Assembly: GCA_028753945.1 (NCBI GenBank)
Contig: JAPNXP010000015.1
Location: 2,976,001-3,040,000, forward strand
DNA length: 64,000 nucleotides
DNA from: Hexactinellida sp. DTS-2022
Lineage: Eukaryota > Porifera > Hexactinellida
Reading direction: 5' to 3'
This document shows positions 1 to 61,354 of the stretch, piece by piece. The notes under the pieces are model-generated. The model did no database searches, was not told where the DNA came from, and was given only the letters and a program-made list of their open reading frames with translations. The translations under genes were made by a program, and so were the position numbers. The stretch's first letter is position 1. Every line of letters begins with the position of its first letter.

Positions 1-1084
1 TCAAATTTCTAATATATTTCAGAGTCTTCATGAATTCCAATCGAGTTAAGTTCTCATATACACAAGTATCATACTGAAGGAAATCAAACACACGTCTCAA
101 AGCAGCAACATCAAAGCTAGAACCAACTCGCTTCGCAGAGTTACCTGTGTAGGATTCTATATTAACTATAAATGCTACTCCGTGTCTGATTCTGTTCATG
201 ACATAAACACGAGAGTAATGCTGAGGCAGTTGAAGTGTTTTTATTGATGTGTCGAGTGTGTCTACTTTTCGGAATGAATCCATTATATCATCACAAAAGT
301 CCAGTAGATGACGATGATAAACATCAGTTTTATATAAAGCAGCATAAAATCTAATTGCCCATTGAGGACCCTGGTTAAACATATCCATTAAAAACATTTC
401 TGACTTACTTTGGTCAATGGAAATATCCTCCATTAAAATGGTTGAGATTCTTTGAATTGTTAAAAGTCCATATGAGTATAGAACATTGTATAATCGTTCC
501 CACTTTAAATGTCTCGAAAACTCACCAAGATTATTGAATATAAAATGAGCAAACAGAGTGTTGTCACAGGAACTAGAGTCGAGAATAAGATCCTTCTTAC
601 CAAGATATTTCAATACATTTTTGAATTGGTTTAAACAACAGAATTTATTCTGATATGTAAGATTATCATGAAAAACAGTATTCAAACAAACGGTTGGATT
701 TGAATGATCAACCATTTCCAACAAAGATTGCTTATCACATGCAATTGTAGACAAAACTGTGTCCAACGACAAATGAGGTTTTTTGCCCTCGTCCAACTGA
801 GATAGAGTTTCACACGAATCACACACAAACATTACTTTAGCTAAATTACCACAGGGGATCAAGGTACTCTGGATTTCCACCATATAAAGTTGTAAAAATG
901 ATAAATAGTTTAGGGTCTCCGAGCAGATGTATTTTTCTTTTGGAGACTGCGCATCAATTGTAAAGAATTTTATCGAAATAAAAGCTTTATCAGCTACGCA
1001 TTCGAATGAAACCAACAGAGAATTACACACATAAAATATAGCACAATCATACCCTAGTGTAGATTTCGGTAATTTTTCGGACTC
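1..1084 (-). CDS. In-frame continuation of the Roco gene: COR end, CARD, caspase (partial)
   Basis: Directly after the TGA the same frame is open for 361 codons and leaves the window. The first ~80 codons continue the COR fold. At ~540-300 lies a CARD-like domain; its last helices carry the typical G-P-Q ... F-Y-A-A-L ... H-L-L-D-F pattern. From ~170 to 1 the start of a caspase p20 is seen: VAFIVNIESYTGN, KRVGSSFDVAALRRVF, then VYENLTRLEFMKTL. This is the CARD-caspase order of initiator caspases. The catalytic His and Cys lie beyond the window edge, so activity cannot be judged. The part has no convincing start of its own: its early codons sit inside a split COR domain. It is therefore read as the C-terminal third of the upstream protein, reached by readthrough or by an allele lacking the stop, or as a broken gene. 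Confidence 0.7.
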
Positions 1085-4000
1085 TCATCTCCTCAAACAC
1101 TTCTCTAGCAGTGTAAAGTAAAGAGATACAGGCAAGAATCCATCTGAGAAGAATAGAAAGAATTCAGATATCAAGCTGGAAAGAGGAAGTTGTTTTATGA
1201 GATCACTTAAGGAACCAGTTAGGAGATAAGGAACGTAAAAACTAGGATTCCCTCTTTCAAACTCACATTGAATTAAAATGCCATACAATTGGAACAATTC
1301 AAGAAGAGGTTCTCTTAAAGTGGACAAACCAATACAATCAAGTATAGAATCAAACAATCTAGCAGAGAGCATGCCTCTCTGATTACACGTAATGATATCA
1401 GCTTCAAACAGTTTAAAACATTCTTCTGTTACATTTTTAAGTTCTTTAACTTTAACAAATTGAGGAAATAGAATGTAATAAATGAGAGTAAGGAATCCTT
1501 GTATATCAATAATAATCTTTTCTTGCTTGTAGAAGAAGAATCCAATATCATTGAAGAAATGTAAGAAATACTGTAACTTTTCAGTACAACCTGATTTTTC
1601 AGCTAAATAATTAATGCGAGTTTCATCTAGAATGGGCTGTTTATCTTTTATAATGTCGTTTGCCAGTTTTAACCATTTAATTGGGATAGGTTCTTCAAAT
1701 GCCACTTGATCAGACACTCTTTTAATTGTGGATTTCAGTTTATTCATATTTACAAAGTAAGGAGAGTCTCTCTTACAACTCAATATAAACATTCCATCTT
1801 CCTCATGCACTAGACTGAATGAGTTATTTCTCTTTGACATGTGAGATCGGAGAGTGAGCAGATGCTCCCTGGCTATTTCTTCAGGATTATCCACCGCATC
1901 AGCTTTGCTAAAGACAAATATAATCTTAGCAGCACTGTAATACCCTTCTGCCAGTTGAGTTTTGCTAACTGAAAATATAGCATTAAGCCAAAACTCATAT
2001 ACTTTAATATAGGTAGTGGGAACTCCTGATTTCGATCGTGTGTCATGTCTATCATCTCTATGACGTTCTTGTATGTCTTGAGCTAACTCTTTAATGGTTA
2101 AATCAACCAAGAGTAGGTATACAGCCCTGGGAGAAAGGAAGAGGGAGTGGAAACAGTATAAATAGTTTTGACCTGCAAAATCCCAGGCAGTAAAGAAATC
2201 AGATTTACTTCGGAGGGATTGGATTCTATCTAAAGTTAAACTGACCTTCTCTAATGGATTATATTCGTCTGAATATGTCTCAGCGGGTACAGGTTGTGTG
2301 TCGGGTTTATCGACTCTTTCAATAGTAATCGTAGGCCTTGTTGCCTGTTCAAGTGAAGTGTTTGTAGTTTGTGAAAGTGCAATATCGACATTCTTTGTTT
2401 TATCATCATAAAAGTTACCAGATTGAAATAACATTTGTGCAACCAATTTCATTGCTAAATCCTGTCTCGTATCTTCTATATTCTTAATGTAAGTATTTAA
2501 ATCTTCAACGTTATTCCAGTCATGTGACAACTTTTGTATCTGCATAGTATAATGGTTAATGAATTGAGTGGTCTTTGGACCATTTTCATCGCTTGGAACA
2601 CTCAACCCTGTTAGAGCACTTAGGAGAGAGGTCTTACCAATACCCTCTGGACCTACAATCATTAAACGGAAGAATTTGAAAGATTCACTCCCTTCCTCAC
2701 AAGCTTTCTTGTAATGAGATTCGAACTCATCACCCTTCCTGTTCAACAGTTGTGCAATATGGCAATGATAGTTTACAAAGAAATTCTTCCTAAAACTATC
2801 TACTGTTTGTATGCAAGTGGACTGTGTAGAGTGTATGATAGAACTACGAAGGATTGAATGTAGTTCTGAGAAGTAATTCCTTTGGATTTCCGAAGAAAAG
2901 TTGATAATAAGTGAGTTACTAGACAAACAAGGTTCTATTGAGTGGACTATAAGCATGTGTTCATAATGTTGATGTACTATGGGTAGTGATACTTCGTTTG
3001 TCTCTATTATATGACTGAAAAAGATCACCTTTGGAAGTTTGGGAAAAGAAGTTGTGATATAATTTGTGAATGTATCTACATTCATTTGAGTTCCGTCTAC
3101 AAATGTGATTTGGTTAGCAGTGTCACCGCTAGTTAGAACTATGATGAATATTGAGTTATATTTTTGATAAAGGGTTTCGTTGAATGTAAGTTTTTTGTAA
3201 TCAGTTAATATTATATCTTGACCAATAGTGTAGTTTATTGACTCGAAGAGTTGCTTAATCAATTTTTGCAAATCGACCCATCTACTTTGTAACAAGGAAC
3301 TGCTATAAACAAAGAAGAAAAGTCCAAGCGATTGTTCCACAGACTCAGATTCCATTTCATTGTTTTTTGTGAGTAAATCAACGTATTTAATCAACACTGG
3401 ATATCGTAATGTGTTCTTTGAATAGAATGTTGTATTACTGTCATATCCACTTTTAACAATGTTAGGGAAATTGTTAAAATAATGATCCCTTGTTTCAGTG
3501 AAGAATTCAGTTAGCAACAGAGATTCATCTGGAGAATGCTTGAGGACTTCATATAGAGACAGTACTAATTGGTGTGGATACACTCCTTGTGGTAGGGAAT
3601 CAATGTTATTAGATGCATAACAGAAGAATGTGTCTGAACAGATATTCATGTTTGGAGGCGGCGTTGGGTCATTAGGAGATATCCAGCTATAAAGTACAAT
3701 AGCTGGCACTACATAGTATGACTGAGACAATGTTTTAGATATCAGAGCATTGATATCTTCTTCAAATATGACATTATTTGAATTATTTCTTCTTTTAAGA
3801 ATATAGCATAGTTTACCATCTGAATATTCCATTGGAGCTCTCTCGCCAATTATGAATGATATAAGATTGCTATAGCCTTCTGAAATGACCGAACTAATAG
3901 CTTCGCCAAATGCATTTCTAAATATTGCAATGGGATCACCCATGTCAGATGTAATAAAAATAAATTTGCATACAAAATTAAATTTCAGTAAACTCACTTG

Positions 4001-4207
4001 GATCTGTTGACAGAACTTATTTCCTTCTAATGTGTTGAACAAAACGAATAATGCCATACCTTTCGATTCTTCTCTCTCATCATACACACTCTTAAACCTC
4101 GCATACACATACTCTGTTCCTATTGAATCGTATTCCTCTTCCCTATAAGAGGGTGAACAAGTTAATTCTCTAGTTTTATATTTAAAGTTTATACGAAAAC
4201 TTCGCAA
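1085..4207 (-). CDS. Roco protein: two caspase-like pseudo-domains, ROC GTPase, start of COR
   Basis: The open frame is 1040 codons. Its first codon is TTG, so a real start may be the ATG at 4057 (residue 51), or an exon may begin after the pyrimidine-rich acceptor ending at 4143. Residues ~50-250 and ~290-440 each read like a caspase p20/p10 pair, but the catalytic segments are lost: the usual S-H-G is replaced by I-G-E and T-S-G, and the Q-A-C-R-G cysteine segment is missing in both. ROC follows: P-loop GPEGIGKTS (~522), switch DFAGQ (~676), SKAD specificity motif (~767). The COR domain starts at ~830 and is cut by TGA at 1085-1087; the same frame then stays open to the window edge. Roco proteins are large regulatory GTPases. 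Fusion to caspase folds suggests a cell-death sensor or scaffold, which is inference. ROC-COR is sure; the pseudo-caspase calls rest on pattern matching. Confidence 0.8.
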   Translation of the reverse strand: MRSFRINFKYKTRELTCSPSYREEEYDSIGTEYVYARFKSVYDEREESKGMALFVLFNTLEGNKFCQQIQVSLLKFNFVCKFIFITSDMGDPIAIFRNAFGEAISSVISEGYSNLISFIIGERAPMEYSDGKLCYILKRRNNSNNVIFEEDINALISKTLSQSYYVVPAIVLYSWISPNDPTPPPNMNICSDTFFCYASNNIDSLPQGVYPHQLVLSLYEVLKHSPDESLLLTEFFTETRDHYFNNFPNIVKSGYDSNTTFYSKNTLRYPVLIKYVDLLTKNNEMESESVEQSLGLFFFVYSSSLLQSRWVDLQKLIKQLFESINYTIGQDIILTDYKKLTFNETLYQKYNSIFIIVLTSGDTANQITFVDGTQMNVDTFTNYITTSFPKLPKVIFFSHIIETNEVSLPIVHQHYEHMLIVHSIEPCLSSNSLIINFSSEIQRNYFSELHSILRSSIIHSTQSTCIQTVDSFRKNFFVNYHCHIAQLLNRKGDEFESHYKKACEEGSESFKFFRLMIVGPEGIGKTSLLSALTGLSVPSDENGPKTTQFINHYTMQIQKLSHDWNNVEDLNTYIKNIEDTRQDLAMKLVAQMLFQSGNFYDDKTKNVDIALSQTTNTSLEQATRPTITIERVDKPDTQPVPAETYSDEYNPLEKVSLTLDRIQSLRSKSDFFTAWDFAGQNYLYCFHSLFLSPRAVYLLLVDLTIKELAQDIQERHRDDRHDTRSKSGVPTTYIKVYEFWLNAIFSVSKTQLAEGYYSAAKIIFVFSKADAVDNPEEIAREHLLTLRSHMSKRNNSFSLVHEEDGMFILSCKRDSPYFVNMNKLKSTIKRVSDQVAFEEPIPIKWLKLANDIIKDKQPILDETRINYLAEKSGCTEKLQYFLHFFNDIGFFFYKQEKIIIDIQGFLTLIYYILFPQFVKVKELKNVTEECFKLFEADIITCNQRGMLSARLFDSILDCIGLSTLREPLLELFQLYGILIQCEFERGNPSFYVPYLLTGSLSDLIKQLPLSSLISEFFLFFSDGFLPVSLYFTLLEKCLRR

Positions 4208-5040: not shown

Positions 5041-5167
5041 AAAAAAAATCCAAAATTGCAGCCTGTGCCGACGCATTTCCCTTTGGAGGCACTACATTTG
5101 GTGGTTGGGTAACTAGTAGTGCCTCCAATGGGAATACTTTCGGCACAGGCTGCAATTTTGATTTTTT
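5041..5167. repeat. Hairpin (foldback) repeat, copy outside the array
   Basis: An imperfect ~125-bp palindrome running from AAAATCCAAAATTGCAGCC to its complement, with a short loop. It belongs to the hairpin family of the 20-33 kb array but lies in the opposite orientation: the GCCGACGCATG arm comes first, while array copies start with GCCGACAGCATG. Confidence 0.8.
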
Positions 5168-5938: not shown

Positions 5939-7855
5939 ATGCCACTTAAAAAACGTTCGCGTGTTGGTAATGATTGTAAACAAACGTCCAATACAGCGAG
6001 AAAGCGAATAAAGCGTGATAATGAAAGTTACCACCAAAGACAACTCCGTCTTCAAATAGATCGAACAACCACTGCAGCTTCGAGAAATTGCGAATCTATT
6101 GAACGGATGCAGGCCCGTCATCAGAAAGATCGGATAAGAACTGCAACCTCGCGAAATTGCGAATCTGTTCTACAGACGCAGGCCCGTCAGCAGAAAGATC
6201 GGACAACTACTGCAACCTCGAGATCCAAAAAATGGGATAATCTCTCTGGCGCTGCTTTTTCATATGATGCCAATACTGATTATAAGAACCACCCCTCTCT
6301 GCTGATTAGTTCCATGACAGAAATATGTTCTTTTTGCAATGCAAAAAAATTTAAAGGAGAGACAGCAGGATTATGCTGTAGTAACGGAAAAGTACAGCTG
6401 CCCAATCTAGAACAGCCACCTGAACTGCTGGAATATTTAATGCTGGGAGAGACTGCTGATTCAAAACATTTCTTAGAAAACATACGCAAATATAATTCTT
6501 GCTTTCAAATTACATCTTTTGGATCAACAAAAAAATTAGCGAGTCCGGATATATGCCAACCTTCAAAATTCAAGGCCAAGTTTACCATACAGTCGGATCG
6601 TTGCTTCCTCTACCAAATGAGTGCCCTAAATTTCTTCAGATTTATTTCATGGGGGATGATATTGCGGAGGCCATTCAGAGGTGCAACACAATCCCTGGAG
6701 TTAGAAATCAAATAGTTCTTTCACTTCAAGATATGCTGCACAACAATAACAGTTATGTTACTTCATTCAAATCAGCTATAGAAAGAATGTCTAACGAGGA
6801 ATACAGAATTATAATTAAAGCTGATAAGATCCCTGAGGGCGAACATGAGCGAAGATTTAATGCTCCAGTCAGAAATGAGGTAGCCATATTGATTGTTGGA
6901 CAAGAATTCGAAAAACGAGACATAGTCTTAGAAAAGAGAAGCAGTGGCCTAATAAGAATTGCTGAAACCCATCGTTCTTATGATAGCCTTCAATATCCTT
7001 TAATCTTTTGGCAAGGAGAAGATGGATACAATTTTAAAATTCTGCAACAGGATCCCATTACCAAGGTCAAGAATCCTGGGAAAAAAGTTTCCTCTATGGA
7101 CTTCTATGCATATCGTTTCATGGTTCGTAATGACAACTTCAACATTATTCAACGCAGCAGGAATCTATTCCACCAGTTTGCTGTGGACATGTATGCCAAG
7201 GTAGAGACAGAACGGCTAACATTCATTCGACTGAACCAGAAGAAGTTACGTGTAGATGATTACATCCACATGCCCACATATTGATTTGGCTTAGAAAAAA
7301 AATCCGACCAACTATGATAGATCAATGCATCTGTGCAGAATTTCCTGACCCTGAAGAAGATCTCGAATTATACAACATCATAAGAAAACAAATGATTCAT
7401 GGACCGTGCGGAGCTCTCAACAAGAATTCACCATGCATGAAGGATGGCCGATGCACAAAAAAATTCCCAAAACGCTTAGTGGAGGAAACACAGTGTGGTG
7501 AATATGGATATCCCAAGTACCGAAGAAGAGCACCTGGTGAAGGTGGTTTCTCAGCAACTGTGCGACAAGGACAACTGGGAGAGGTGACTGTTGATAACAA
7601 ATGGGTAGTTAGTTACAGTCCTTTGCTGTGCAAAATCTTTAATGCCCATATCAACGTCGAGTTTTGCAACTCGATCAAATCTATCAAATATGTTTGCAAA
7701 TATATCAATAAGGGTACAGACCAGGCGGCCCCGCGGTATTCGCATTTGAAAAAGAAGGAAGGGATGAAATAACTGAATTTCAACAAGGACGATATATTAG
7801 CAGCAACGAGGCACTGTAGAGACTCTTCAGCTTTCCGATCCATGAGCGATATCCA
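5939..7855 (+). pseudogene. Helitron Rep/helicase protein, N-terminal half (broken, HUH segment deleted)
   Basis: The start ATG at 5939 opens a basic leader with three ~22-residue repeats (R-T-A-T-S-R-N-C-E-S type). The Helitron-like N domain follows. A frameshift lies at the A7 run near 6530-6536, so the reading frame moves to that covering 6540-7283. After DDYIHMP (about 7270) the sequence jumps to the K-K-I-R-P segment. The stretch that normally holds the Rep HUH motif, roughly 90 codons, is missing. The last Rep landmark, KYVCKYINKG with its two tyrosines, is present at ~7687. Another frameshift near 7733 and an in-frame TAG at 7817-7819 follow. This copy cannot encode an active rolling-circle transposase. 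Confidence 0.85.
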
Positions 7856-10044
7856 ACAGTTGTGCATCTCAGCGTTCATCTAGAAAATGGCCAACGTATC
7901 TATTTCACAGAAGAGACATTACAACAACAAATAGAAGCTCCCACCAACACCACACTTACAGCATTTTTTCAACTTTGCCAAGAAGACGACTTTGCCAAAA
8001 CTATACTCTATGTGGAAGTCCCAAAATACTACACCTGGGGACAGAGTAAAAGAAAGTTCAAGCGACGTACCCAAGGAGTAGCGGTAGAAGGATTTAACGA
8101 AATCAAGGCAAGTGATACACTTGGGAGAGTTTACACAGTCCACCCCAATAACTTTGAATGCTTCTGTTTGAGGCTGCTTTTACATCATGTTCATGGTCCA
8201 ACCTCATTCCAACACTTGAGAACTGTGAGTGGTCATGTTTATCCAACTTACAGAGCAGCATGCAACTTATTGGGTTTGTTGGAAGACGATTCTCATTGGA
8301 ATGATACCTTATCAGAAGCTGCTACGACTGATTCTTCGACAAAGCTTAGATATCTATTCTCCATCATGTTAGCAACATGTGGACTATCAAACCCAAAGCA
8401 ACTATGGGAAAATCATAAGGACAGTCTTTCAGAATATGTACACCGTCAAGTCCAGCAGAATAATCCTAATGTTGAAATAAACTACACTGATGACATCTAC
8501 AACAGGGCTTTGATATTGCTAGAAGATTTGGTCCTGTCCATAATTGGCAAAGCCCTTCAAGAGTTTGACTTACCGTCTCCAGTCCGCACCAACGCCCCAA
8601 TTGCCAATCGAGAAGTCTTGAAAGAAACGAATTACTGCATTGACCAATCGGAGTCATACATTCAGGATAACGAACCGCTGTTAGTGCCAGATCAAGCCGC
8701 TGCATATGATAGGATGAGACTAACTGTTCAGGAAGAGAGAGGAGGCATAATATTTTTGGATGCCCCGGGTGGAACTGGCAAGACGTTTCTCATCAATCTT
8801 CTCTTGGCAAAGATTAGAAGCCAGAACAAGATAGCGCTTGCAGTAGCATCTTCAGGCATTGCAGCAACTTTGTTGGAGGGAGGACGAACTGCTCATTCTA
8901 CATTTAAATTGCCTCTAAACCTGTCTCACGATGAAACTCCAATGTGCAACATTAAAAAGGGATCTGGTTCTGCAACACTCCTGCAAAAATGTCACCTTAT
9001 AGTCTGGGATGAATGTACCATGTCACATAAGAGTGCATTTGAGGCTTTAGACAGAACTTTGCAAGACATACGCAACAACAACCTTTTGTTTGGTGGTGTA
9101 ACTTTGGTGATAGCAGGTGACTTTCGCCAAACATTGCCAGTAATCCCACGAAGCACACCTGCAGATGAACTCAATGCATGCCTGAAAGCATCTTACCTTT
9201 GGCAACATGTCGAAAAATTAAGATTGACTACAAACATGCGAGTACACTTGCAATCTGATGTTGGTGCTGCGCACTTTTCTGAACTTCTCTTGCAAATTGG
9301 GAATGGTACTCTACCACTTGACCCTAAAGGTCAAATTATCCTGCCAGCAGGTAGTGGTAACATTGTCCATACGGACGAAGAGCTAAAGAATATGGTTTAT
9401 CCAAACATCATCCAACACTATCAGATTAAAAATGGCTGTGCGAGAGGGCAATTCTTGCACCAAGAAATGACAAAGTTGAATTAATAAACATCTCTTTACT
9501 AAAGCAACTACCCGGAACAGAAATATTGTACAAGTCTATAGATACCGTTGTTGATGCGAATAATGCTGTCCAATATCCAGCAGAATTCCTCAATTCATTG
9601 GATCCACCAGGGTTACCACCACACCACTTGGTACTCAAGATTGGAGCACCAATAATGTTACTTCGAAATTTAGATGCACCTAAATTGTGTAATGGTACGC
9701 GACTTTCAGTGAAATCTATGACGCCTCACGTAATTGAAGCCACTATTCTAACGGGACCAGCCAAAGGAGAAGATGTCCTCATCCCAAGAATTCCACTCTT
9801 GCCAGTGGATATGCCATTCGAAATCAAGAGACTTCAATTTCCGGTTAAATTAAGTTTTGCTATGACCATCAACAAGTCTCAAGGCCAATCTTTAAAGGTA
9901 GTTGGTCTCCACCTGGAAACGGGATGTTTCTCGCATGGCTAACTATATGTTGGGTGTTCTCGAGTTGGATCCAGCTCAAATCTCCACATATTAGCGAAGG
10001 ATGGCAAGACGATTAATGTTGTATATCCCAAAGCTCTACGATAA
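7856..10044 (+). pseudogene. Helitron PIF1-type helicase half (broken)
   Basis: This continues the Helitron protein. The PIF1 helicase core is well kept: Walker A APGGTGKT (~8765), the GIAATLL segment, Walker B VWDECTM (~9005) and AGDFRQTLPVI (~9115). A frameshift near 9425-9432 moves the frame to that of the 9526-9942 part. This part holds the INKSQGQ motif (~9870), typical of the C-terminal helicase lobe. TAA at 9940-9942 falls just before the conserved L-Y-V-G-C-S-R ending, which remains readable in frame to a stop at 10044. The helicase is diagnostic for Helitrons. The lesions show it is dead in this copy. Confidence 0.85.
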
Positions 10045-11117: not shown

Positions 11118-13539
11118 ATGGCATCTGGCTCAAATCAAAATTTATCTAATTCTAGCCTCTATTGTGGTCCTCATCGACCAAGAACATTTAATTTCCCATT
11201 TAGAATCTTTGGAAATGAATCAATCACGAAGAGATCATTTTTACCAAAATGGTTTGATACTTTACTTAGTTAGATTATGATGAGTCTAATGATTGTGTTC
11301 ATTGTTATATTTGCCGTCTTGCTTTATCTAAAAAAAAGTTAAAATTACCACAAAAAGACTTATCCTTTACTCATCTTGGATTTACTAACTGGAAGGATTC
11401 AACAGTTGGTTTTAGAACTCATGAAAAATCTAAATCTCATATTAACGCTGTTGAAGTCATGATGGTAACACATTCAAACACCACGTTAGATATTGGACGC
11501 ATGCTATCAGCAAACTATGAGGAAGAGAGAAAGGTTAACCGTGAAATGTTGCTTTTGATACTGAAGAATATTAGATTTTTAGGACGTCAAGGCCTTTCCT
11601 TAAGAGGCGATGGGGATGAAGTTAATAGTAATTTTATTCAACTATTAAAACTTAATGATCAGAATCTGAAAATCGATAATTGGTTAAAGAAGAAGAGTAA
11701 TAAATACACTAGTCCAGACATCCAGAATCAGGGGCGGATTGGGCCGCCGGGACACCGGGATAATGCCCGGTGGGCCGGTGGATCGATGGGCTGTGGCTCG
11801 ATGGGCGGTAGATCGGTGGCCCGGTGGATCGATGGGCGGTAGATCGGTGGGCCGGTGGATTCGGGCAGTGGGCCAGTTTCGCGAATTTGCCAGGGCCGCC
11901 TAAGTAGCCCAATCCGCCCCTGTCCAGAATGAAATATTAAAGCTCATGGCAATCAGTATTTTAAGAAAGATTGCCTATAGAATTCAGAAAGCTAAGTTTT
12001 TTACATTAATGTGTGATGAATGTACAGACGTAAACAATAAGGAACAACTTGTAATATGCTTGAGATGGGTTGAAGATGACAAATTGGAAGTACATGAAGA
12101 TTTCATTGGAATGTACGTGGTTCCTAATATCGCCGCAGATATTTTGTTTTCCACAATTAAAGATGTCTTAATACGACTGAATCTGAGCTTTACCCGTTGT
12201 CGTGGCCAATGTTACGACGGGGCGAACAATATGAGGGGTGCAAAAAATGGTGTGTCGAAACAAATAATGGATATAGAATCTCGATCGTTGTACACCCATT
12301 GCTATGGGCATAGCCTTAATTTAGCTGCAGGTGATGCCATTAAAGGTTGTAAAGTACTTCAAGACACACTTGACATAACATTTGAAATATCTCGACTAAT
12401 TAAATTTTCACCAAAGCGTAACAATATGTTTGACATTTTAAAGGATGAATTAGCACCTGAAACATGTGGATTTAGAGTACTCTGTCCCACTCGATGGACA
12501 GTTCGTGCAGAGAGTTTAAATAGTGTGGTTACAAATTATGAGGTGTTGCTGCAGTTGTGGGAAGATTGTCTTGAAACAAGGTTACAGTCTGATATAAGAG
12601 CAAGAATCATTGGAGTACAATCACAGATGGAATCATATAAATATTTGTATGGTGTTATGTTAGGTATTCTTATACTGAAACATTCTGACAATTTGTCTCG
12701 TTCACTGCAGAAAACTGATATATCAGCATCTGAGGGTCAATAAATAGCTTCTTTTACAGTCAAAACCCTGAAACTAATGAGAAATGAAGAACATTTTATA
12801 CTTTTCTGGCTAAAGGTGACTCAATCTGCAGAGAAATTAAACATTCAAGACGCCTTTTTACCACGTAGAATTAAAAAACCTAAGAGATACGAAGATGGAA
12901 TTTGTAGTGAACACTCAGCTACCCCTGAAGAGCATTATTTCAAGATTTATTGTCAAGCCATGGATCTAATAATTAATTGTATCGAACGTAGATTCAATCA
13001 GCCTGGATATCAAATCTATAAAAATCTCCAAGAGCTACTTTTAAATAGTGTGAATAAAAAAGATTTTAGTAAAGAGTTTGATGTAGTGATTAAAACATAT
13101 GGCTCTGATATAGATTCATTTAGATTACAAGCACAGTTGGAAACCTTAGCTGCTCAATTTGAGAGTAACAAAGTAACACGAACTTTCAATGATATTTTGT
13201 GTTTTTACAGCATCTTTCACCGGTACAAAGATCAATATTCTGTCAGATAGAAATAGTGGTTAATCTTATACTAGTAATGCCATCAACAAACGCAGTCAGT
13301 GAAAGGCCTTTTTCAAGCCTACGAAGGGTCAAAACATACCTTCGATCTACAATGACTCAAGAACGATTGAACAATTGTATGATATTAACTGTTCATAAGA
13401 AGAAACTGATCAATTGGAATTGTTAGATATAGCAAAAGATTTTGCTTTTAGTGATCACAGAAAAGTTATTTTTGGAAGTTTTTACAAGATACTTGATTCT
13501 GACCATTATTTTAGATTTAGAGCGGATGGAGTGCTTTAG
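11118..13539 (+). pseudogene. hAT transposase with N-terminal TTF-type zinc finger (broken)
   Basis: The ATG at 11118 begins a zf-TTF-like region with a C-V-H-C-Y-I-C pattern near 11298, reached only after a frameshift at ~11270. A 194-bp MITE interrupts the frame at 11729-11922; without the MITE and one duplication copy the frame reads through. The body (DUF4371-like, CDECTDVNNKEQLV) runs from 11946. TAA at 12741-12743 is an in-frame nonsense codon, followed by open frame from 12777. A further frameshift near 13200-13250 leads to the hAT C-terminal dimerisation signature (MPSTNAVSERPFSSLRRVK). A last one near 13400 precedes the C-terminus. Similar transposases are often labelled ZMYM1-like. 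This copy is inactive. Confidence 0.85.
11729..11922. mobile_element. hAT MITE inserted in the hAT transposase gene
   Basis: A 194-bp GC-rich element with perfect 16-bp inverted ends, CAGGGGCGGATTGGGC and its complement. It is flanked by a perfect 8-bp duplication TCCAGAAT (11721-11728, 11923-11930). The interior has short repeats of GGTAGATCGGTGG / GGATCGATGGGC type. Confidence 0.95.
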
Positions 13540-19109: not shown

Positions 19110-19129
19110 CATACAACAGTGCTTTGGTT

Positions 19130-19520
19130 GGTAATTACTGTGCCGACTATACTATAGTATAGTGGCCCAGTTCTAATCTTAGTGCTTTGGTATATTATTA
19201 TTACTGTGCCGACTATACTATAGTATAGTGGCCCAGTATTGGTCTTAGTGCTTTGGTTTGTTGTTATTATTACTGTGCCGACTATACTATAGTATAGTGG
19301 CCCAGTTCTAATCTTAGTGCTTTGGTTAGTTATTACTGTGCCGACTATACTATAGTATAGTGGCCCAGTTCTAATCTTAGTGCTTTGGTTAGTTATTACT
19401 GTGCCGACTATACTATAGTATAGTGGCCCAGTTCTAATCTTAGTGCTTTGGTTAGTTATTACTGTGCCGACTATACTATAGTATAGTGGCCCAGTTCTAA
19501 TCTCAGTGCCTTGGTTATTA
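19130..19520. repeat. Minisatellite with perfect palindromes
   Basis: Six units of ~60-70 bp, each holding ACTGTGCCG, then ACTATACTATAGTATAGT (a perfect 18-bp palindrome), then GGCCCAGT, separated by variable T-rich spacers ending AGTGCTTTGGTTAGTTATT. The unit is open in one minus-strand frame, giving a repetitive 144-codon frame judged non-genic. Further copies of the palindrome unit lie at ~20726, 20787, 20862, 20917, 21838, 23333, 26517, 26576 and 26644, usually right beside the hairpin. Confidence 0.9.
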
Positions 19521-20594: not shown

Positions 20595-23500
20595 AAAAAA
20601 TCCAAAATTGCAGCCTTTGCCGACAGCATGTTCCATTGGAGGCACTATCAATAAACCACCAAAAAAATATAGTGCCACCAAAGGAACATGCGTCGGCACA
20701 GGCTGCAATTTTGGATTTTTTATTACTGTGCCGACTATACTATAGTATAGTGGCCCAGTTCTAATCTTAGTGCTTTGGTTAGTTATTACTGTGCCGACTA
20801 TACTATAGTATAGTGGCCCAGTATTAGAATCACTGCCTTTATTATTATTATTATTATTTTTACTGTGCCGACTATACTATAGTATAGTGGCCCAGTTCTA
20901 ATCTCACTGCCTTTATTACTGTGCCGACTATACTATAGTATAGTGGCCCAGTATTGGAATCACTGCCTTTATTTATATTATTATTATTTTTATTTTTTCT
21001 CCGTAGACGGTGCCCTGGCCTGAGCTTTATAGTTGATGGGCTGAAACTTGGCATGTAGGTGCGTATGGACCGTCTAATTTGCACCTGGGGCTACGATTTT
21101 TTATTAACAAATTTTTGACACATCTTTAACACCTTTCAAAATTTGTCTGGTCCATAGCTAGAAAAATGTTTTACTAAACCCCCAAATTTTATTTCACATT
21201 TGGATTCACCATAAAATTCTGCGTCTGATGGGAGAAGAAAATTTGTTAGAATTGGTTTAATTTCTGCCATAAATGGGGGTTGAAATTCCTTTGTTTACTC
21301 AACACTTCAATTTCAATAAAACTGTGAAATCTAATTCCATTGTTTCAACTTGTAATAATTATATTGATTTAACTTGTTAACGCTTTCACTATTGTTTCAA
21401 CTTGCGATAATTAAATTGATTCAACTTATAAATTCCAGCTGGCTTCTATTTAATTCTAGTATTACTATACAATGGATTAAATAAAATAATATAATATAAG
21501 GAATTTGTTGACTAAACTCAAATCACCGTGGATAACATTGCTAAAATAACTAACTAATAATATAATTCATTATCAATACATAATGAATGAATGGCATTGA
21601 ACTCTAGATGGTTTATGATAGAAACAAACTTCAAATTTATCTACCGTTCCTTGTGACTCGGACCAAATAACAAATGCTTCTTCACACCTTGGGCGTAGAT
21701 GACTTGGCGAAAAAAAATCCAAAATTGCAGCCTGCGCCGACAGCATGTTCCTTTGGAGGCACTATCAATAAACAACACAAAAATAGAGTGCCACCAAAGG
21801 AACATGCGTCGGCACAGGGTGCAATTTTGGATTTTTTTTACTGTGCCGACTATACTATAGTATAGTGGCCCAGTATTGGAATCACTGCCTTTATTTTTAT
21901 TATTTTTATTTTTTCTCCGTAGACGGTGCCCTGGCCACACCTTTATACATAGAGAGCTGAAACTTGGCATGTAGGTGCGATGGGAGCGTCTAATTTGCAC
22001 CTGGGGTTACGATTTTTTATTGACAAATTTTTGACACATCTTTAACACCTTTCAAATTTTGTCTGGTCCATAACTCTAAAATTGTTTTACTAAACCCCAA
22101 AATTTTATTTCACATTTGGATTCGCCATAAAATTCTGCGTCTGATGGGAGAAGAAAATTTTCAATAAAGGGATCAATTTCTGCCATAAATGGGGGTTGAA
22201 ATTTCTTTGTTTACTCACACTTCAATTTCAGTAAAACTGTGAAATCTAATTCCATTGTTTCAACTTGTAATAATTATATTGATTTAACTTGTTAAATCCT
22301 ACTCTAGTGATTCAACTTGCGATAATTATATTGATTTAACTTATAAATTCCAGCTGGCTTCTATTTAATTGTAGTATTACTATACAATGGATTAAATAAA
22401 ATATTATAATATAAGGAATTTGTGGACTTAATTCAACTTAACCGTGGATAACATTGCTAAAATAAATAACTAATAATATAATTTATTATCAATACATAAT
22501 GAATGAATGGCTTTAACTCAAGATGGTTTATGATAGAACCGTAAGATTTACATTCCACAACAACGACAGATTAAGTGAATATATTTATTTCGGCGAGAAT
22601 ATTCTTGCACAATTAATGTACTGACGTAATTAATTCGAATTAATTCGCTCTGTGTTTAACGTATAGAGACGGTTCTAAATAGATTATTGGGGTTATCGAG
22701 TTCGCTGAATTCAAATATGATAATGAAATTCAATTTAAATTAATAATTATTGCAAATAATTGAACTTAATTTATTTTGATGTACATAATTTTGGTGATAA
22801 ATTATTAATAGATTAATTAAATTTTTATACTAATTAGCTAAATTTCATTAATCTCAGAAATGATACAAGATAGAAAGAAACTTTAAATTTATCAATTGGT
22901 CCTTATGACACGTACCACCTAAACAAGTGGATCTTGACACCTTAAGGTGATGATGACATCGTAAAAAAAATGAATTTTTCCACTTTTGTGAATTAAATAA
23001 TTCGCATGGGTTGGTTGGAGTTGGGTAAACACCCAACACGCACTTAAAAAATGCTGAATCATCACACATTATATTCTACTGAAACTTGAATATCTCTCAA
23101 ATAAAGTGAGCTAAATGGAGACTTCCAACTCACTAAGGGTCGTTGCCTTTTGAAACACCTTTGTGAAATAATTTAACACCTTCATAGTGATGATGACATG
23201 GCGAAAAAAAATCCAAAATTGCAGCTGAGCCGACAGCATGTTCCTATGGAGGCACTATCAATAAACCACCACCAAAATATAGTGCCACCAAAGGAACATG
23301 CGTCGGCACAGGCTGCAATTTTGGATATTTTTACTGTGCCGACTATACTATAGTATAGTGGCCCAGTATTAGAATCACTGCCTTTATTTATATTATTATT
23401 ATTTCTCCGTAGCAGGTGCCCTGGCCACACCTGTATACATAGAGGGCTGAAACTTGGCATGTAGATTCGGAGTCGACGTCTAATTTGCACCTGGGGTTAC

Positions 23501-26500: not shown

Positions 26501-29500
26501 AATTTTGGATTTTTATTACTGTGCCGACTATACTATAGTATAGTGGCCCAGTATTGGTCTTAGTGCCTTGGTTATTACTGTGCCGACTATACTATAGTAT
26601 AGTGGCCCAGTTCTAATCTTACTGCCTTGGTTAGTTATTATTACTGTGCCGACTATACTATAGTATAGTGGCCCAGTATTAGAATCACTGCCTTTATTTA
26701 TATTATTATTATTTCTCCGTAGCAGGTGCCCTGGCCACACCTGTATACATAGAGGGCTGAAACTTGGCATGTAGATTCGGAGTCGACGTCTAATTTGCAC
26801 CTGGGGTTACGATTTTGTATTAACAAATTTTTGACACATCTTTAACACCTTTCAAAATTTGTCTGGTCCATAACTCAAAAAATGTTTTACTAAACCCCAA
26901 AATTTTATTTCACATTTGGATTCGCCATAAAATTCTGCGTCTGATGGGAGAAGAAATTTTTCAATAAAGTGGTCAATTTCTGCCATAAATGGGGGTTGAA
27001 ATTTCTTTGTTTACTCACACTTCAATTTCAGTAAAAGTGTTAAATCTAATTCCATTGTTTCAACTTGTAATAATTATATTGATTTAACTTGTTAAATCCT
27101 ACTCTAGTGATTCAACTTGCGATAATTGTATTGATTCAACTTATAAATTCCTGCTGGCTTCTATTTAATTGTAGCATTACTATACAATGGATTAAATTAA
27201 ATTAATTTATATAAGGAATTTGTTGACTTTACTCAACTCACCGTGGATAACATTGCTAAAATAAATAACTAATAATTTAATTTATTATCAATAAGTAATG
27301 AATGAATGGCATTAAACTAAAGATGGTTTATGATAGAACCGTTAAGATTTTACATTCCACAACAACTACAGATTAAGTGATTATATTTATTTCGGCAAAA
27401 AAATTCTTGCACAATTAATGTACTGACGTAATTAATTATAATTAATTCCTTTTGTATTTAACTTATAGACGGTTCCAATTGGATTATTGGGGTTATTGAG
27501 TGCGCTGAATTCAAATATGATAGTGAAATTCGATTTAAATTAATAATAAGTGCAAATAATTGAACTTAATTTATTTTGCTGTATATAATAATGGTGTTAA
27601 ATTATTAATACATTAATTAAATTTTTATACTAATTAGCTAAATTTCATTAATCTCAGAGATGATACAAGATAGAAATAAACTTTCAATTTATCAATTGGT
27701 CCTTATGGCACGTGCCACCTATACAAGTGGGTCTTGACACCTTGAGGTGATGATGACATCGTCAAAAAAATGTGTTTTTACAATTTTGTTAATTCGACAT
27801 TTAAAATGGGTTAGTTCATGTTGGGTGATGACCCAACACTCACATAAAAAATGCTGAGTCATCAGCTATTATATTCTACTCAAACTTGAATATCTTTGAA
27901 ATGAAGTAAACTAAAACGAAACTTCCACCACTCTAAGGGTCGATGCCTTCTGAAACACCTTTTTGAAATAATTTAACACCTTCATAGTGATGATGACATG
28001 GCGGAAAAAAAAATCCAAAATTGCAGCTGTTCCGACAGCATGTTCCATTGGAGGCACTATCTATAAGCCACCACCAAAATATAGTGCCACCAAAGGAACA
28101 TGCGTCGGCACAGCTGCAATTTTGGATTTTTTTATTTTTGGTCCGTAGATCGTCCACTGAACAGAGTTTAATTAACTAAGAACCCAAAATTTCAGGACAG
28201 GTGTCTCATGGGTTACAGATGTGCACCTGGGGTCACGATTTTTTACTACATTTTTTTGGACACATTTTTGCACCTGTTTAATATTAGAAAAAGAACAATA
28301 AATAGTGCACAAATATTTAATTTATATGCATTCGATAGAGAATTAAATTCTACACCTTTTCACAGTGCACGAATTTTTAAATTGAGTTTCGTTTGTGCCA
28401 CAATTGAGTTGCAAGTTTCCTTTGTTTACTAACACTTCAGTTCAATTGAAGTGTTAAATCGAATTCTATTGTTTCAACTTGTGATAATTACATTGATTCA
28501 ACTTGTGAGATCGAGTAGGCTTCTATTTTCTAATTGAAAACTAAGATTTTACATTCCATAACAACAACAGATTATGTGATTATATTTATTTCTGCTCAGA
28601 ATATTCTTGAACAATGGATACATGAGATATTTAATTCTAATTAATTCGCTCTGTGTTTAACTTAGAGAAACGGTTCCAATTAGATTATTAGGGTATCGAG
28701 TGCGCTGAATTCAAATATGATAGTGAAATTAAATTTAAATTAATTATTATAGCAAATATTGAACTTAATTTATTTTGATGTAAATAATATTGGTGTTAAA
28801 TTATCTTAGATTAATTAAATATTTATACTAATTGTCTAAATTTCATTAATCTCAGAAATGATACAAGATAGAAACAAACTTTAAATTTATCAATTGGTCC
28901 TTATGGCACGTACCACCTATACAAGTGGATCTTGACACCTTGAGGTGATGATGACATCGTCAAAAAAATGTATTTTTACAATTTTGTGAATTATATTATT
29001 AAAATGGGTTAGTTGGAGTTGGGTGATGACCCAACACTCACATAAAAAATGCTGATTCATCACTTATTATATTCTACTGAAACTTGAATATCTTTGAAAC
29101 GAAGTGAGCAAAATGGAAACTTCCACCACTCTAAGGGTCGTAGCCTTCTGAAACACCTTTCTGAAATAATTTAACACCTTTATAGTGATGATGACTTGGT
29201 GAAAAAAAAATCCAAAATTGCAGCCTGTGCCGACAGCATGTTCCATTGGAGGCACTATCAATAGACCACCACCAAAATATAGTGCCACCAAATGAACATG
29301 CGTCGGCACAGGCTGCAATTTTGGATTTTTTATTTTCCTTCCGTATCCTCTCCACAGAACAGAGTTTTATTAACTAAGAGCCCAAATTTTCAGGATATGT
29401 GTCTCATGGGTTACAGATGTGCACCTGGGGTCACGTTTTTTTATCACATTTATTTGGCCACATTTTTGCACCTGTTTAATATTAGAAAAAGAACAATAAA

Positions 29501-35295: not shown

Positions 35296-35919
35296 TTAAC
35301 TTCCAATAGACCCATTTACATACCGCTGCCGTATATCATTTCCTTGTGGAAGAATTTGCATTTTAAAATTACTCTGAAATTCAATTTCACTCATTCCTGA
35401 GAATACATCATTATACTGTTTAAACTCCTCTACTACTTCTCTTCTGTTAATTGCTGCCATAATTTTTGACAGTTTAACCAGGTCTCTCTCTATCAATCCT
35501 TTTTTCAATAGCTCACACAGTACAGTATCAGTACTAAAATTCTTCATTGAATTACTTTTTATTCCTATACAAATAATTTGCCAGCTTTCATTGGGTATTT
35601 CAGTTGTTAGTAAGTCGATTAAGGTTTTAATTGACAAATCCTCCCGGGCCTTATCTCCGCTAGCGCTAGGAGATGACACACAGAGCCAAGGAATCTTACA
35701 AGCTATGGGTATAAGGTAGGGTAGTTTCATTGTCTGGAGTGCTTCATAGAATAGGTAGGGGTCATGTCCCTTCCAGCGTTTCAGTGCTAATATAAAATCT
35801 GAGCTAGAGTGAATATCTTGAAACAATCCAGAAGGCACTCCTAAAATTATTTTTAGCTTCTCAGTATCTTCCGCAGTCAGCGATTTAGATAACTCGAATA
35901 AACTACCCATTTCATCCAT
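35296..35919 (-). CDS. Tandem death-effector-domain-like protein
   Basis: A single-exon frame of 207 codons with an ATG start at 35919. Residues ~5-75 match the six-helix DED pattern (L-F-E-L-S-K-S-L-T-A-E-D ... L-K-I-I-L-G ... L-F-Y-E-A-L). Residues ~92-168 form a second such fold (T-L-I-D-L-L ... E-L-L-K-K-G-L-I-E-R-D-L ... I-N-R-R-E-V-V-E-E-F). A ~35-residue tail without a domain follows. Tandem DEDs are the layout of caspase-8/-10 prodomains and c-FLIP; without a protease part this would be an adaptor or decoy in death-receptor-type signalling. The second domain could instead be a Death domain, since both share the fold. More exons upstream cannot be excluded. Its neighbours are repeats, so there is no operon-like context. 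Confidence 0.65.
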   Translation of the reverse strand: MDEMGSLFELSKSLTAEDTEKLKIILGVPSGLFQDIHSSSDFILALKRWKGHDPYLFYEALQTMKLPYLIPIACKIPWLCVSSPSASGDKAREDLSIKTLIDLLTTEIPNESWQIICIGIKSNSMKNFSTDTVLCELLKKGLIERDLVKLSKIMAAINRREVVEEFKQYNDVFSGMSEIEFQSNFKMQILPQGNDIRQRYVNGSIGS

Positions 35920-38979: not shown

Positions 38980-41900
38980 CATAGCATTCTATACTCTAAG
39001 GCAATGCCGCGGTTGAATGGACTTGGACCATGGACGAACTAGTATAGTTATCGATTTTATTTAAATAATTAGATTACATGCAACTATGCTAGTAATTTAG
39101 GGAAACTAGGAGTTTTATCAATCCACCACCCATTATAAAACTATAGAATCACTTAAGAAGAATATATTTTTTATTCATATTCTCAAAACAAACACAAGTA
39201 CGTATCAGAATATTAAATAGTATAGCAAAATAACAAGAACGAAGTATTCAAGAGTAGAGTAATTGCTGAGCTAAGTGTCATCATAACAAGTCCATCTCTA
39301 AGTGTTGGTAGTTAAGTGAAAGAGTAGTGCATCAGGATGTTACTTGAACTGGATACCTAAAAGTTAAAGAGAAAGAGAAACTAGGAACTGAATTTCTTGA
39401 GCTTGGCATTATTGCGGCCAACAACCATATCATTAAAATTTCTCACTTTCTTTGATAAAATACAATTCGCCACAGTTGTAAATATCTTTTTTAGAATTTC
39501 CCATTTCGAATTCATACAAATACACCACCCCCTCCAAATTTCACTCTGATTCATTTCGACATCGAGTATGGCTAACTGAACTAAATTTCGGCGACAGGAA
39601 CCCTCATAAAATAATCTACTTAAACGTGAACTATTATCAATCTTTAGAAATATTTCATAAATAATTAAAACAGATTCAAAAACACTCTCTGATGGATATT
39701 TAAGGGAACCTCTGTCCAGCAAATCGATCAATGAAAATCCAGTGTCGTTGTCAACTTCAATATCTTTGGGGGAAGTTAAAAAGTTCTGACAGTCTGTGCA
39801 ATGTGCAGATAGTTTCAAATAAGAAAATACTGCATATCCAGCAACATAATTTAAGCAGTCTATTTGTGAATTATCAAATATGGGGCAAACAATATTGGAT
39901 AATTCATTAGTAAAATATTCAAAATTAATTTCTGAATGCATTCTATCGACATTATCATCCTCTGTGAAAGTTTGTAAATATTCCTTAAGAGAAATGGTAT
40001 CACTTTGTTGTTTAATATAAAAGAACTTAAGAATATTTGATAACTGAAGGCGACGTTCACTCTCTAAAATTTGAGAGTAAGATATATTATAGTTGGAGCC
40101 AGACATTTGACGATATAGTCCAAAGTGGTGTTCTAATGGATCATTTTGTAATTTGTACCCGAGATGTCAACAAATATTCAAAACCACATTCTACGGTCAA
40201 TCTACGAACTAAGAGTGGGAGAGCAATACAGGTGTGTCTAAAACTTGTAAATGTTTGCGGTGTAAGCTTCCCACTGGATGTAGGCATAGCCCTCCAAAAA
40301 TCTAGCCATTGTACAACATTATCCAAGAAAGACAATCTCTGGTCGTTAAGATGGAGCGGAGCTAGTAATGGGTTATTGAAACGAATATCTTTTCCGACCC
40401 AGTTGACATTGAAAATGTTCCAAATTCGATTTATCAGGTTTATGAATTCGACAGTATGACAGTTTTCACCTGTTGTATTCTCATGATTGAAACTTGAGAG
40501 CCCCGCTGCTGTAGATTCATGAAAAACCTTTAGAGCCAATTTTACATTTTGGCGTTCTAAGTGAGATGGCCAACATGCTTTAGATGTCAATTTTGGGGCT
40601 CTCTTAATTATGGAGAATTTGTCGGCTTTATACAAAACACGGAGATCGTCAAATGCTGCGTAATTGATTGAAGGATAATTTGACTTGGTGAATTCGGCAG
40701 AATTTAGAGAAATGTTAGCAATGGGTAAAGATATTTTTAACTGAGTGCAAGGTAGATTGACTGGATGAGACTGTTTAAAAGTGTAGTCCTCAAATTTGGG
40801 ATACATAAAGGTTTTCTCAAAATCTTTCAAATTCAACCAGTTATTACGGATTGACTTAATGATATGGACAATGTCAAAAAATAATATAAGATTTCGAGCT
40901 GGATCACATGGATGTACAACCTTAGGATGCAATACTTTTCCATCATCTGACAATAATTTATACAAGCTAACGTTCAAAGGATAATTATCGGTACATATTG
41001 CTTCTACAAATAGACCACAGCTCTCGATATCAAATATAGTTTGTCTAACTATTGGGTGTAGGTAAGCAGCAGAAGAAGACCCCAGTGGTATTAAACGTAC
41101 AATGGTGGAAAATCTTTTCATTAAACTCGAAACCATCATTGAAAATACAGTTGTAGGGGGGTCATTTGGGTTGTCAATTGAGCCCAGAATCTTACCTCCC
41201 TTATAGGATGCATCACTGCGGATATGGACTTCGTCCATTTGAAGGATTACATGACGTTCTCGGGGACTGAACTTAGATGTTATTTCCTTAAGTATTTGGA
41301 AATACTCTCCACCTATACCTAACGTGTTCTTTATAGCAAGTAATTTTCGCTCGTGTGGTAAAACTAAGCAATTAGATGAATGAATAAATCGGTAACAAGC
41401 CGGTGATATCCCATAAATTTTAAGTGAGAAAACCTGCGTTAAAATGTTATAACGTCGATTATTTTTCGAATTTGTCAAATTAGTAAGTTGTCCTATAAAA
41501 AAGTGAAGTGATATTTTCAAAGATTCACTATTGGAATTTGAACTGTCATCATTGTCTAAATCTAACGAATCACCTTCAATAAGTTTAATTGCGTTTTCTA
41601 GCTGACGGATGGCAATGTTGACAAGATTGTTAATTGAAAGTTCAAAAGGAGAGGAAACAGTTTCTAATATCGGCGAAAACTTGTCAACTTCATAGAGTAG
41701 ACTCTCAATTTGGCGAGTATCATTAATTGATATTCTCGAAAGTGAAATTGAAAGGTTTTTATTATCGAATGCTTTAATAAATAAATCATTGTCAACTGAT
41801 AATGATCGTTCAATGATTGGCCCGGAATCCGAAATAACAATTTTCATAAAAAATAAAGGGCTGTTTTGAGAATTGTGTAATATCCAGCCGTTCGGAATGT

Positions 41901-42774
41901 CAATTAAATTTAACTTTGAAATAAGGTCAAAATAAGAATTAACTAGGAACTTATCAACACAATCTTCATTGTCAGTCAAACTCTGTGAGTAGGCAGCTTG
42001 AATCATCAATTGTTCTTTGTCGTCTTTGGAGAGTCTCTTTGGTCTGGAGTTCCAATCAGACAGGTAGGAAGGACAGTTGGGGAAAATTGTTGGTACTGCA
42101 TCTTTCTTCAGGGAAACTCTTTCTCTGGGAACTGTAACTGTTCTTTGCCCGTCAAAAAAATCAAATGCACTTTCAATGTTATCAGCTTTGAAATGATGTA
42201 TGCATACCTAAGGAAGAAGAACGAATTGAATGCATGTAAATAAGAAAAACAATATAAAGAATGAGTATTACCTTCATTTGTTTGTTGTTTTCATAATCTT
42301 TCCTTGGTCTTGGAATTGATTTGAACCATTGTTCACGTAAATTCAAATCCTTGGGAAAGTTGAAAGCGGTGGTGAATTCTCCCTGGCCTTTATAATTTGA
42401 TTTACAACCTGGAACAAGACAGCTCAGAGATAGAATGATTTTCGATGCTGTAAAATATCTTCAATGCGGGTAGTATAGAATGAAACAATGATCTCACTGT
42501 GTCAAAGACTATATAATCGATGTAAATATTATGTTTATGGGTGGTTTTAAAAATTGTATATTGACACATAAAATTAGTTCCGTTGAGCCCAAGTCAGTAC
42601 AATAAGAATTCCCTAAGACTACCTATTATATACTTCAGTTTATAGTACTTAATTAATTCTGGCGACAAAATTCAAATTTGAAACAATTTTTGGCAATAAT
42701 GTATAACTATACTAGTTCGTCCATGGTCCAAGTCCATTCAACCGTGGCATTGCCTTAGAGTATAGAATGCTATG
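38980..42774 (-). mobile_element. P-element-like DNA transposon
   Basis: The ends CATAGCATTCTATACTCTAA (38980) and its complement (42774) belong to inverted repeats of ~75 bp with one or two differences. The flanks carry CTTGTAC on both sides (38973-38979, 42775-42781), a 7-bp duplication close to the 8 bp usual for P elements. The interior encodes a THAP-domain P-type transposase on the minus strand. The element lies ~250 bp past the 3' end of the ankyrin gene. Confidence 0.9.
39381..42447 (-). pseudogene. P-element/THAP9-like transposase (frameshifted)
   Basis: The THAP zinc finger is split by a 64-nt GT-AG intron (42208-42271). The exon at 42272-42447 (acceptor before 42447) gives C-L-V-P-G-C; the exon from 42207 gives V-C-I-H-H-F, completing C-x4-C ... 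C-x2-H, with the AVPTIF landmark nearby. The long frame to 40141 holds P-transposase features: QMDEVHIRSD (a likely catalytic aspartate region), FDIVHIIKSIRNNWLN and GKLTPQTFTSFRH. Around 40145-40155 a 7-nt direct-repeat-like insertion breaks the frame. The next frame resumes at once with the N-D-P-L-E-H-H-F-G segment and runs to the stop at 39381. The first coding exon, with the start codon, was not found. Apart from the 7-nt lesion the gene looks fresh. Confidence 0.85.
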
Positions 42775-56379: not shown

Positions 56380-56382
56380 CAA

Positions 56383-60689: not shown

Positions 60690-61354
60690 TTACACGCTAG
60701 AAGAGTCAGGATCCTCCATAGACTGAGCTTTGTCAGAAATAATGCTTGCTTCGTCACTGTCGCCACAAATTTCTTGGTTTTCAATGACGACATTTTCAGG
60801 TATCCCAATGCTTAGTATATCACTGTCGCCACAAATTTCTTGGTTTTCAATGACGACATTTTCATGTATCCCAATGCTTAGTTTGTCACTGTCTCCACAG
60901 ATTTCTTGGTTTTCAATTATGACATTTTCAGCTATCACAATGCTTAGTTTGTCACTGTCGCCACAAATTTCTTGGTTTGCAATGACGACATTTCCAGGTA
61001 TCCCAATGCTTAGTTTGTCACTGTCGCCACAAATTTCTTGGTTTTCAATGACGACATTTAAAGGCAGCGACTTTTTTGTGTGTGTAGGGCTGACTCCATA
61101 CCTGCTCTCGATTTCAGACATTATGTCATCGCTGAAAAGAGAGGTACGTTTCTCCATCGATTCTTTGTGCATGAAACTAGTTGATTCGGTAATTCCTGAC
61201 GAGAAAGGATTGTCAACCTTTGATTCAAGGAATTTTAGCTCTTCGTAGTCATTATCGCATACAATGTTGTTGTAACCAAACGTTAATTCCTTTTCGGGAA
61301 CTTCGGGGAGTTTTTCATTTGCATAGCGGGTGGCTCCTTCGTTGGAATCTTTCG
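60690..61354 (-). CDS. Repetitive cytoplasmic tail, probably of the adhesion GPCR (out of frame)
   Basis: From about 61365 a frame is open on the minus strand (P-I-Y-D-E-E-I-A-K-D ...) down to a stop at 60690, overlapping the end of the receptor frame by a few codons. It begins in the middle of acidic, polar sequence like that of a receptor tail and has no start codon near its beginning; the ATG at 61172 would give 160 codons. Residues coded at ~60750-61070 are five tandem 22-residue repeats of N-V-V-I-E-N-Q-E-I-C-G-D-S-D-K-L-S-I-G-I-P type (66-bp DNA unit). A single indel or a sequencing error near 61370-61390 would join it to the receptor. The poly(A) signal (AATAAA, minus) lies at ~60565. 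As a separate small gene it would be of unknown function. Confidence 0.55.

Follow-up and report, generated by a model that had tools for sequence, protein, structure and literature searches.

A glass sponge Roco gene with ROC, COR, a CARD and the start of a caspase in one reading frame

The Parkinson's protein LRRK2 is a member of the Roco family. In Trichoplax adhaerens, there are at least 17 putative Roco genes, and the partners of ROC-COR in their products include CARD, death and TIR domains (PMC4104024). Bacteria possess AP-GTPase/COR conflict proteins, and the caspase is one of at least 24 C-terminal effector domains of these proteins (PMC8195603). Here, we describe a Roco gene of the glass sponge Hexactinellida sp. 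DTS-2022. It is located at one end of a stretch of 64,000 nucleotides (NCBI GenBank assembly GCA_028753945.1, contig JAPNXP010000015.1, positions 2,976,001 to 3,040,000 of the forward strand; the whole stretch is called the window), and its minus-strand frame, which one stop codon interrupts, carries a ROC GTPase domain, COR, a CARD and the beginning of a caspase. The gene product is best read as a GTP-switched, self-scaffolded initiator-caspase-like protein.

The present gene has ROC-COR together with CARD in common with the Trichoplax Rocos, and the accessible text of that report mentions no caspase domain (PMC4104024). The bacterial proteins share with it the combination of a ROC-COR-type GTPase and a C-terminal caspase, but they have N-terminal leucine-rich repeats (LRRs), and neither a CARD nor an N-terminal pseudo-caspase is mentioned in the accessible text (PMC8195603). 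Since a strict pattern for the cysteine motif found no caspase in any of the 115 open reading frames (ORFs) among the matches listed in our own prokaryotic Roco sample, this publication is our single source for the bacterial link between Roco and caspase. DAPK1 is an animal Roco protein that has a C-terminal death domain and lacks LRRs (PMC6337361); it differs from the present gene by the kinase in front of ROC-COR and by the lack of a caspase. In Entamoeba, there are inactive-myotubularin-LRR-Roco-kinase proteins (PMC4104024): as is probable here, a dead enzyme precedes ROC-COR and an effector follows it, but these are a phosphatase and a kinase rather than caspases.

A CARD followed by the p20 start of a caspase is also the order in caspase-9, caspase-2 and CED-3; the difference is that here the two are attached to ROC-COR and that the catalytic residues are out of view. 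The pseudo-caspase of cFLIP has its His and Cys replaced, as probably has the second domain of our frame, and a tandem DED would be shared as well if an exon at 35.3-35.9 kb belongs to the gene. cFLIP is not known to contain a GTPase, a CARD or a further caspase. For one placozoan, two adjacent genes with a CARD and a caspase-like domain have been reported, as well as Apaf-1 homologues, which number twelve when CARDs are taken to include death-like domains (PMC6321704). Our search, largely of literature outside subscription journals, revealed no report of ROC, COR, CARD and caspase in one animal chain, which does not prove novelty. The surprise is lessened by the fact that Roco-CARD proteins from Trichoplax and Roco-caspase proteins from bacteria are published: The gene is real and unusual, and its domain order is a variation on known Roco fusions.

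The frame from ROC to the caspase start

A single minus-strand frame extending from 4252 to 2 carries ROC, COR, CARD and then the first approximately 60 residues of a caspase. It is made up of two pieces that share the same frame, 4252-1088 (1055 codons) and 1084-2 (361 codons), with nothing but a TGA at 1085-1087 between them; downstream of the 361-codon piece is the edge of the window. The order of ROC, the pre-stop part of COR, CARD and caspase start in one frame is in agreement with the original prediction, which had been made from this DNA alone; of the two inactive caspases that it had placed in front of ROC, at best one is supported. The prediction had read the two parts around the TGA without discussing the stop: the common frame on both sides stands, whereas the terminal caspase is present only as a stub. 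The prediction had also spoken of an executable protease, whose catalytic His and Cys would be outside the window, and of an all-in-one apoptosome, which is hypothetical.

The ROC domain (1703-2686, minus strand) was identified by Pfam, by PDB matches and by a prokaryotic ROC-COR profile. Pfam Roc matches the frame with E=6.8e-9 (36.4 bits, exceeding the cutoff of 27). The profile is based on a sample of at least 115 prokaryotic loci with WDF[AG]GQE, and 87 of the 115, which had enough sequence on both sides, were kept. It gives 50.7 bits for ROC, a score that none of 2000 shuffled sequences reached (the highest had 5.7), and 71 bits for the frame over residues 503-573 and 687-988. Among the 1322 ORFs of the window, the runner-up obtained 5.5 bits with this profile. 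The best PDB matches of ROC are chains of LRRK2 (from E=2e-4) and prokaryotic chains (E=6.7e-4) which we take to be Rocos. The domain has a P-loop, GPEGIGKTS (2627-2653), the motif WDFAGQ (2168-2185) behind an insert of about 110 residues, and SKAD at the place of G4. Side matches to ABC, AAA and similar proteins were discarded as P-loop cross-matches.

The COR region was assigned to 773-1705 (minus strand). Up to the stop (1088-1705) the assignment is made by profile: residues 850-1055 alone give 18.2 bits, and 0 of 2000 shuffles reach this value (highest score 5.6). The Pfam COR models reported nothing on two COR fragments with E up to 10 and the HMMER filters on. No profile matches the piece behind the stop when it is taken by itself, and the last part of COR was therefore assigned by its position and by a spacing. 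If the TGA is read through, 27 residues separate the P of FLP from the aromatic residue in the strand that follows; in prokaryotic Rocos the same spacing is 21-31 residues (41 of 115 fitting the pattern, among the matches listed). A long hhalign alignment through the stop looked convincing, but the post-stop piece alone fell below the shuffles. The predicted COR is thus confirmed before the stop and lacks a profile match behind it.

The CARD (293-532, minus strand) matches positions 7-82 of the 85 in the Pfam CARD model with E=0.019, under the gathering score. With a home-made profile built from seven CARDs, it obtains 19.6 bits as compared to 8.2 for the best of 2000 shuffles, and in the scan of all window ORFs the frame 2-1084 ranks first (17.2; next 4.8), so that this domain of the prediction holds. 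The caspase p20 start (2-190, minus strand) is cut by the window edge. Pfam Peptidase_C14 matches with E=1.2e-7, but only with model positions 2-56 of 233, with the edge beyond; thus, the predicted C-terminal caspase is borne out for the approximately 55 positions that are in the window. Caspases in the PDB match this segment as well (best E=0.002), and the frame 2-1084 again ranks first among the ORFs, with 22.3 bits. Behind the first strand, the segment AKRVGSSFD (110-136) keeps, as judged by eye, the Arg that is conserved in the N-terminal portion of p20.

At the 5' end, a likely splice acceptor is present at 4143-4160 of the minus strand (TTGTTCACCCTCTTATAG/G). The Roco exon therefore probably starts at 4142 rather than at 4207, the bound that had been predicted. 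The Roco exon itself was among the training sequences of a hexamer scan, in which the coding signal sets in at 4153. As the first in-frame Met is found only at 4057-4055, where the first claimed domain begins, an upstream exon of the gene is likely. A candidate for a paralogue in the window, the second match with E=0.17, is noise, and searches with PADLOC and NCBIfam gave nothing useful.

The N-terminal half and a possible DED exon

Two inactive caspases had been predicted in front of ROC. The evidence weakly supports the second, whereas the scores of the first are those of shuffled sequence. Domain 1 (3353-4075, minus strand) looks like an alpha/beta protein, with an order of strands and helices that by eye is plausible for a caspase. 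No match up to E=10 was found with Pfam or NCBIfam, and the domain was dropped as a demonstrated caspase since no profile score exceeded the shuffles. The idea that the two domains are recent duplicates was rejected as well because the register is shifted in the BLASTP alignments between them (best E=2e-4).

Domain 2 (2678-3355, minus strand) resembles the p20 half of a caspase in an aligned stretch at 3020-3259. With four home-made caspase or p20 profiles, it obtains 10.0-13.4 bits, scores that were reached by 0, 2, 1 and 1 of 3000 shuffles, respectively, and by none of 690 natural segments; the p20 profiles account for 12.4 and 13.4 bits, each reached by one shuffle in 3000. In a separate run, one of 2000 shuffles reached the score with each of two profiles, and when the shuffling preserved the residue classes and thus the hydrophobic pattern, 0 and 1 of 3000 did so. 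The p10 half is no better than shuffles, Pfam C14 does not report the domain, and the hhalign probability is 5.6-8.1%. When aligned by eye, TSG is found at the SHG motif and SHI at the QAC motif, and the Arg loop is absent, a pattern close to that of cFLIP. Domain 2 is thus probably a pseudo-caspase in which the catalytic His and Cys are replaced by S and I.

The lack of catalytic residues in domain 2 (by eye) would also fit a Roco protein of the ordinary kind that carries death-fold adaptor domains: all of its caspase-like pieces would be inactive remnants, and the protein would be a scaffold rather than a protease. Trichoplax has Rocos that carry a CARD or a death domain (PMC4104024), which points in the same direction. 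The C-terminal caspase start, however, matches far better than domain 2 (22.3 as compared to 7.6 bits in the scan of the window ORFs), and it retains the conserved Arg by eye. We therefore regard a mere scaffold as rather unlikely.

A possible upstream exon of the Roco gene is located at 35324-35919 on the minus strand and may encode a DED, perhaps in tandem. Pfam DED matches 35919-35324 with E=2.4e-5, under the cutoff. In the shuffle control, the first half was equalled or beaten by 3 of 3000 shuffles and the second half, which is weak, by 28 of 3000. The donor of this exon, GCG/GTATGT, leaves 2 nt and is in phase with the acceptor at 4142, a fit that is expected by chance in one case out of three, and when the two exons are joined, the frame is open as far as the TGA. 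The intron would span 31 kb and enclose a Helitron and a DUF4371 transposase. A hexamer exon scan of the region from 4.1 to 35.3 kb is weak, since it missed the segment 1084-2 in its top 30. The DED ORF (35296-35919) could equally extend the Roco gene or be a gene of its own that ends at 35296. A full chain composed of two DEDs, one or two pseudo-caspases, ROC-COR, CARD and an active caspase is a speculative extension that we consider quite improbable.

The stop codon within COR

The TGA at 1085-1087 (minus strand) is the only stop of the frame between 4252 and 2, and it splits COR. The codon log-odds, trained on the other genes of the window with the Roco gene left out, are 0.070 per codon before and 0.055 behind the stop, and on each side the frame is the best of the six. 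The codon bias is weak in this genome, and one of the ten scored ORFs is negative; the evidence is thus modest. With a single stop in 1417 codons, an old pseudogene is less likely than a recent loss, a variant allele or an error. The copy with the stop could represent a null allele, a pseudogene of recent origin or a fault of the assembly, and the ancestral chain would have been continuous across the site of the TGA.

It has to be considered that the Roco gene truly ends at this TGA and that a CARD-caspase neighbour is in frame by chance, or that the fusion is a decaying pseudogene. The presence of the in-frame TGA is in line with this possibility, as is the lack of an independent COR match in the segment right behind the stop. 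Yet, COR would then stop inside its second half, nothing but the stop codon separates the two open stretches, the 361 codons continue in the same frame, and the codon usage past the stop is coding-like. Two separate genes or a dead fusion are thus an explanation that we find doubtful. An mRNA kept continuous by a short intron that holds the TGA is the least probable alternative: in the range scanned, 24 phase-compatible pairs of splice sites (GT or GC donors) could excise the stop and keep the frame open, but the sites are weak by eye, and the shortest excision (45 nt, 1098-1054) would cut the distance between FLP and the aromatic residue from 27 to 12 residues, as compared to the 21-31 of the prokaryotic Rocos mentioned above.

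Proposed mechanism, neighbourhood and implications

We estimate a probability of about 0.5 for one chain that combines a GTP-controlled ROC-COR module with an N-terminal half that has probably one dead caspase-like domain and with a C-terminal CARD and caspase and that works as follows. A bacterial Roco protein occurs mostly as a dimer in its empty or GDP-bound form and as a monomer upon GTP binding (PMC5714945). As suggested by this protein, the nucleotide turnover of ROC-COR would change the oligomeric state, and this change would set the distance between several chains, so that their CARDs and caspase domains approach each other or move apart. The caspase would then fire by induced proximity, and a separate Apaf-1-like scaffold would not be needed. 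The N-terminal pseudo-caspase would act like cFLIP, as a partner in dimerisation by which the C-terminal protease is damped or licensed.

Several observations weigh against this proposal. The TGA inside COR interrupts the chain; the post-stop COR piece alone gives no score with hmmsearch, and with hhalign it obtains 11.9 as compared to up to 25.1 in 200 shuffles. The caspase is a stub: its catalytic His and Cys and the p10 part would fall beyond base 1. In the N-terminal half, domain 1 has -2.5 bits or no score with the caspase profiles, which is within the bulk of the shuffles; for domain 2, the score with three of the four profiles is matched or exceeded by one or two shuffles in 3000, and in the window-wide scan its 7.6 bits are close to the 6.0 of the next ORF. 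No relatives were found in the window, in viral_contigs with both pieces as queries, or in genome_contigs and plasmids with the long piece as the query. The AlphaFold models, calculated from single sequences in two jobs, are unusable (mean pLDDT of 36.2 and 35.3). Finally, the GTP-switch mechanism is drawn from analogy.

The neighbourhood of the gene contains several mobile elements. Just upstream of the Roco exon are the remains of a Helitron (5939-9942, plus strand) with Helitron_like_N and PIF1 helicase split among several frames, and a MITE-like imperfect inverted repeat, recognized by eye, is found at 5045-5165 around GCAGCCTGTGCCG. DUF4371 transposase-like ORFs extend from 11459 to 13250 on the plus strand, with the domain itself at 11946-12743, and a TNP-like (P-element-like) transposase is encoded at 39381-42009 on the minus strand, and its RNase H domain and GTP-binding insertion domain lie within 40141-42009. 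Tandem arrays at 19118-19517, 20715-20992 and 26512-26681 have the palindromic core CTATACTATAGTATAG in common. A two-copy 52-bp repeat with a near-identical unit is found at six places (23727, 24580, 26002, 27038, 30869 and 32288). Further to the right, on the minus strand, exons for DEAD_2 and Helicase_C_2 (45781-56382) presumably belong to a gene of the FANCJ/BRIP1 type, a minisatellite at 60690-61172 (66 bp, 4.8 copies) is in frame in an ORF of 160 amino acids with the opposite strand also open, and an adhesion-type G protein-coupled receptor with EGF repeats, a GPS motif and 7tm_2 is encoded at 61355-64000.

Cell death signalling in animals is usually described as the interplay of a separate nucleotide-switched scaffold, an adaptor and a protease. 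If the proposed reading of the Roco gene is true, animals, too, would have put a caspase under the control of GTP, as seems to be the case in bacteria with the AP-GTPase conflict proteins. If the chain extended by the DED exon is true as well, one polypeptide would unite an inhibitor of the cFLIP type with a GTP switch and a CARD initiator caspase, and a Roco switch would govern both halves of cell-death control in animals, the DISC-like and the apoptosome-like one. The gene would provide a natural fusion for asking how the nucleotide state of a Roco protein controls its effector, a question that is also open for LRRK2 and its kinase.

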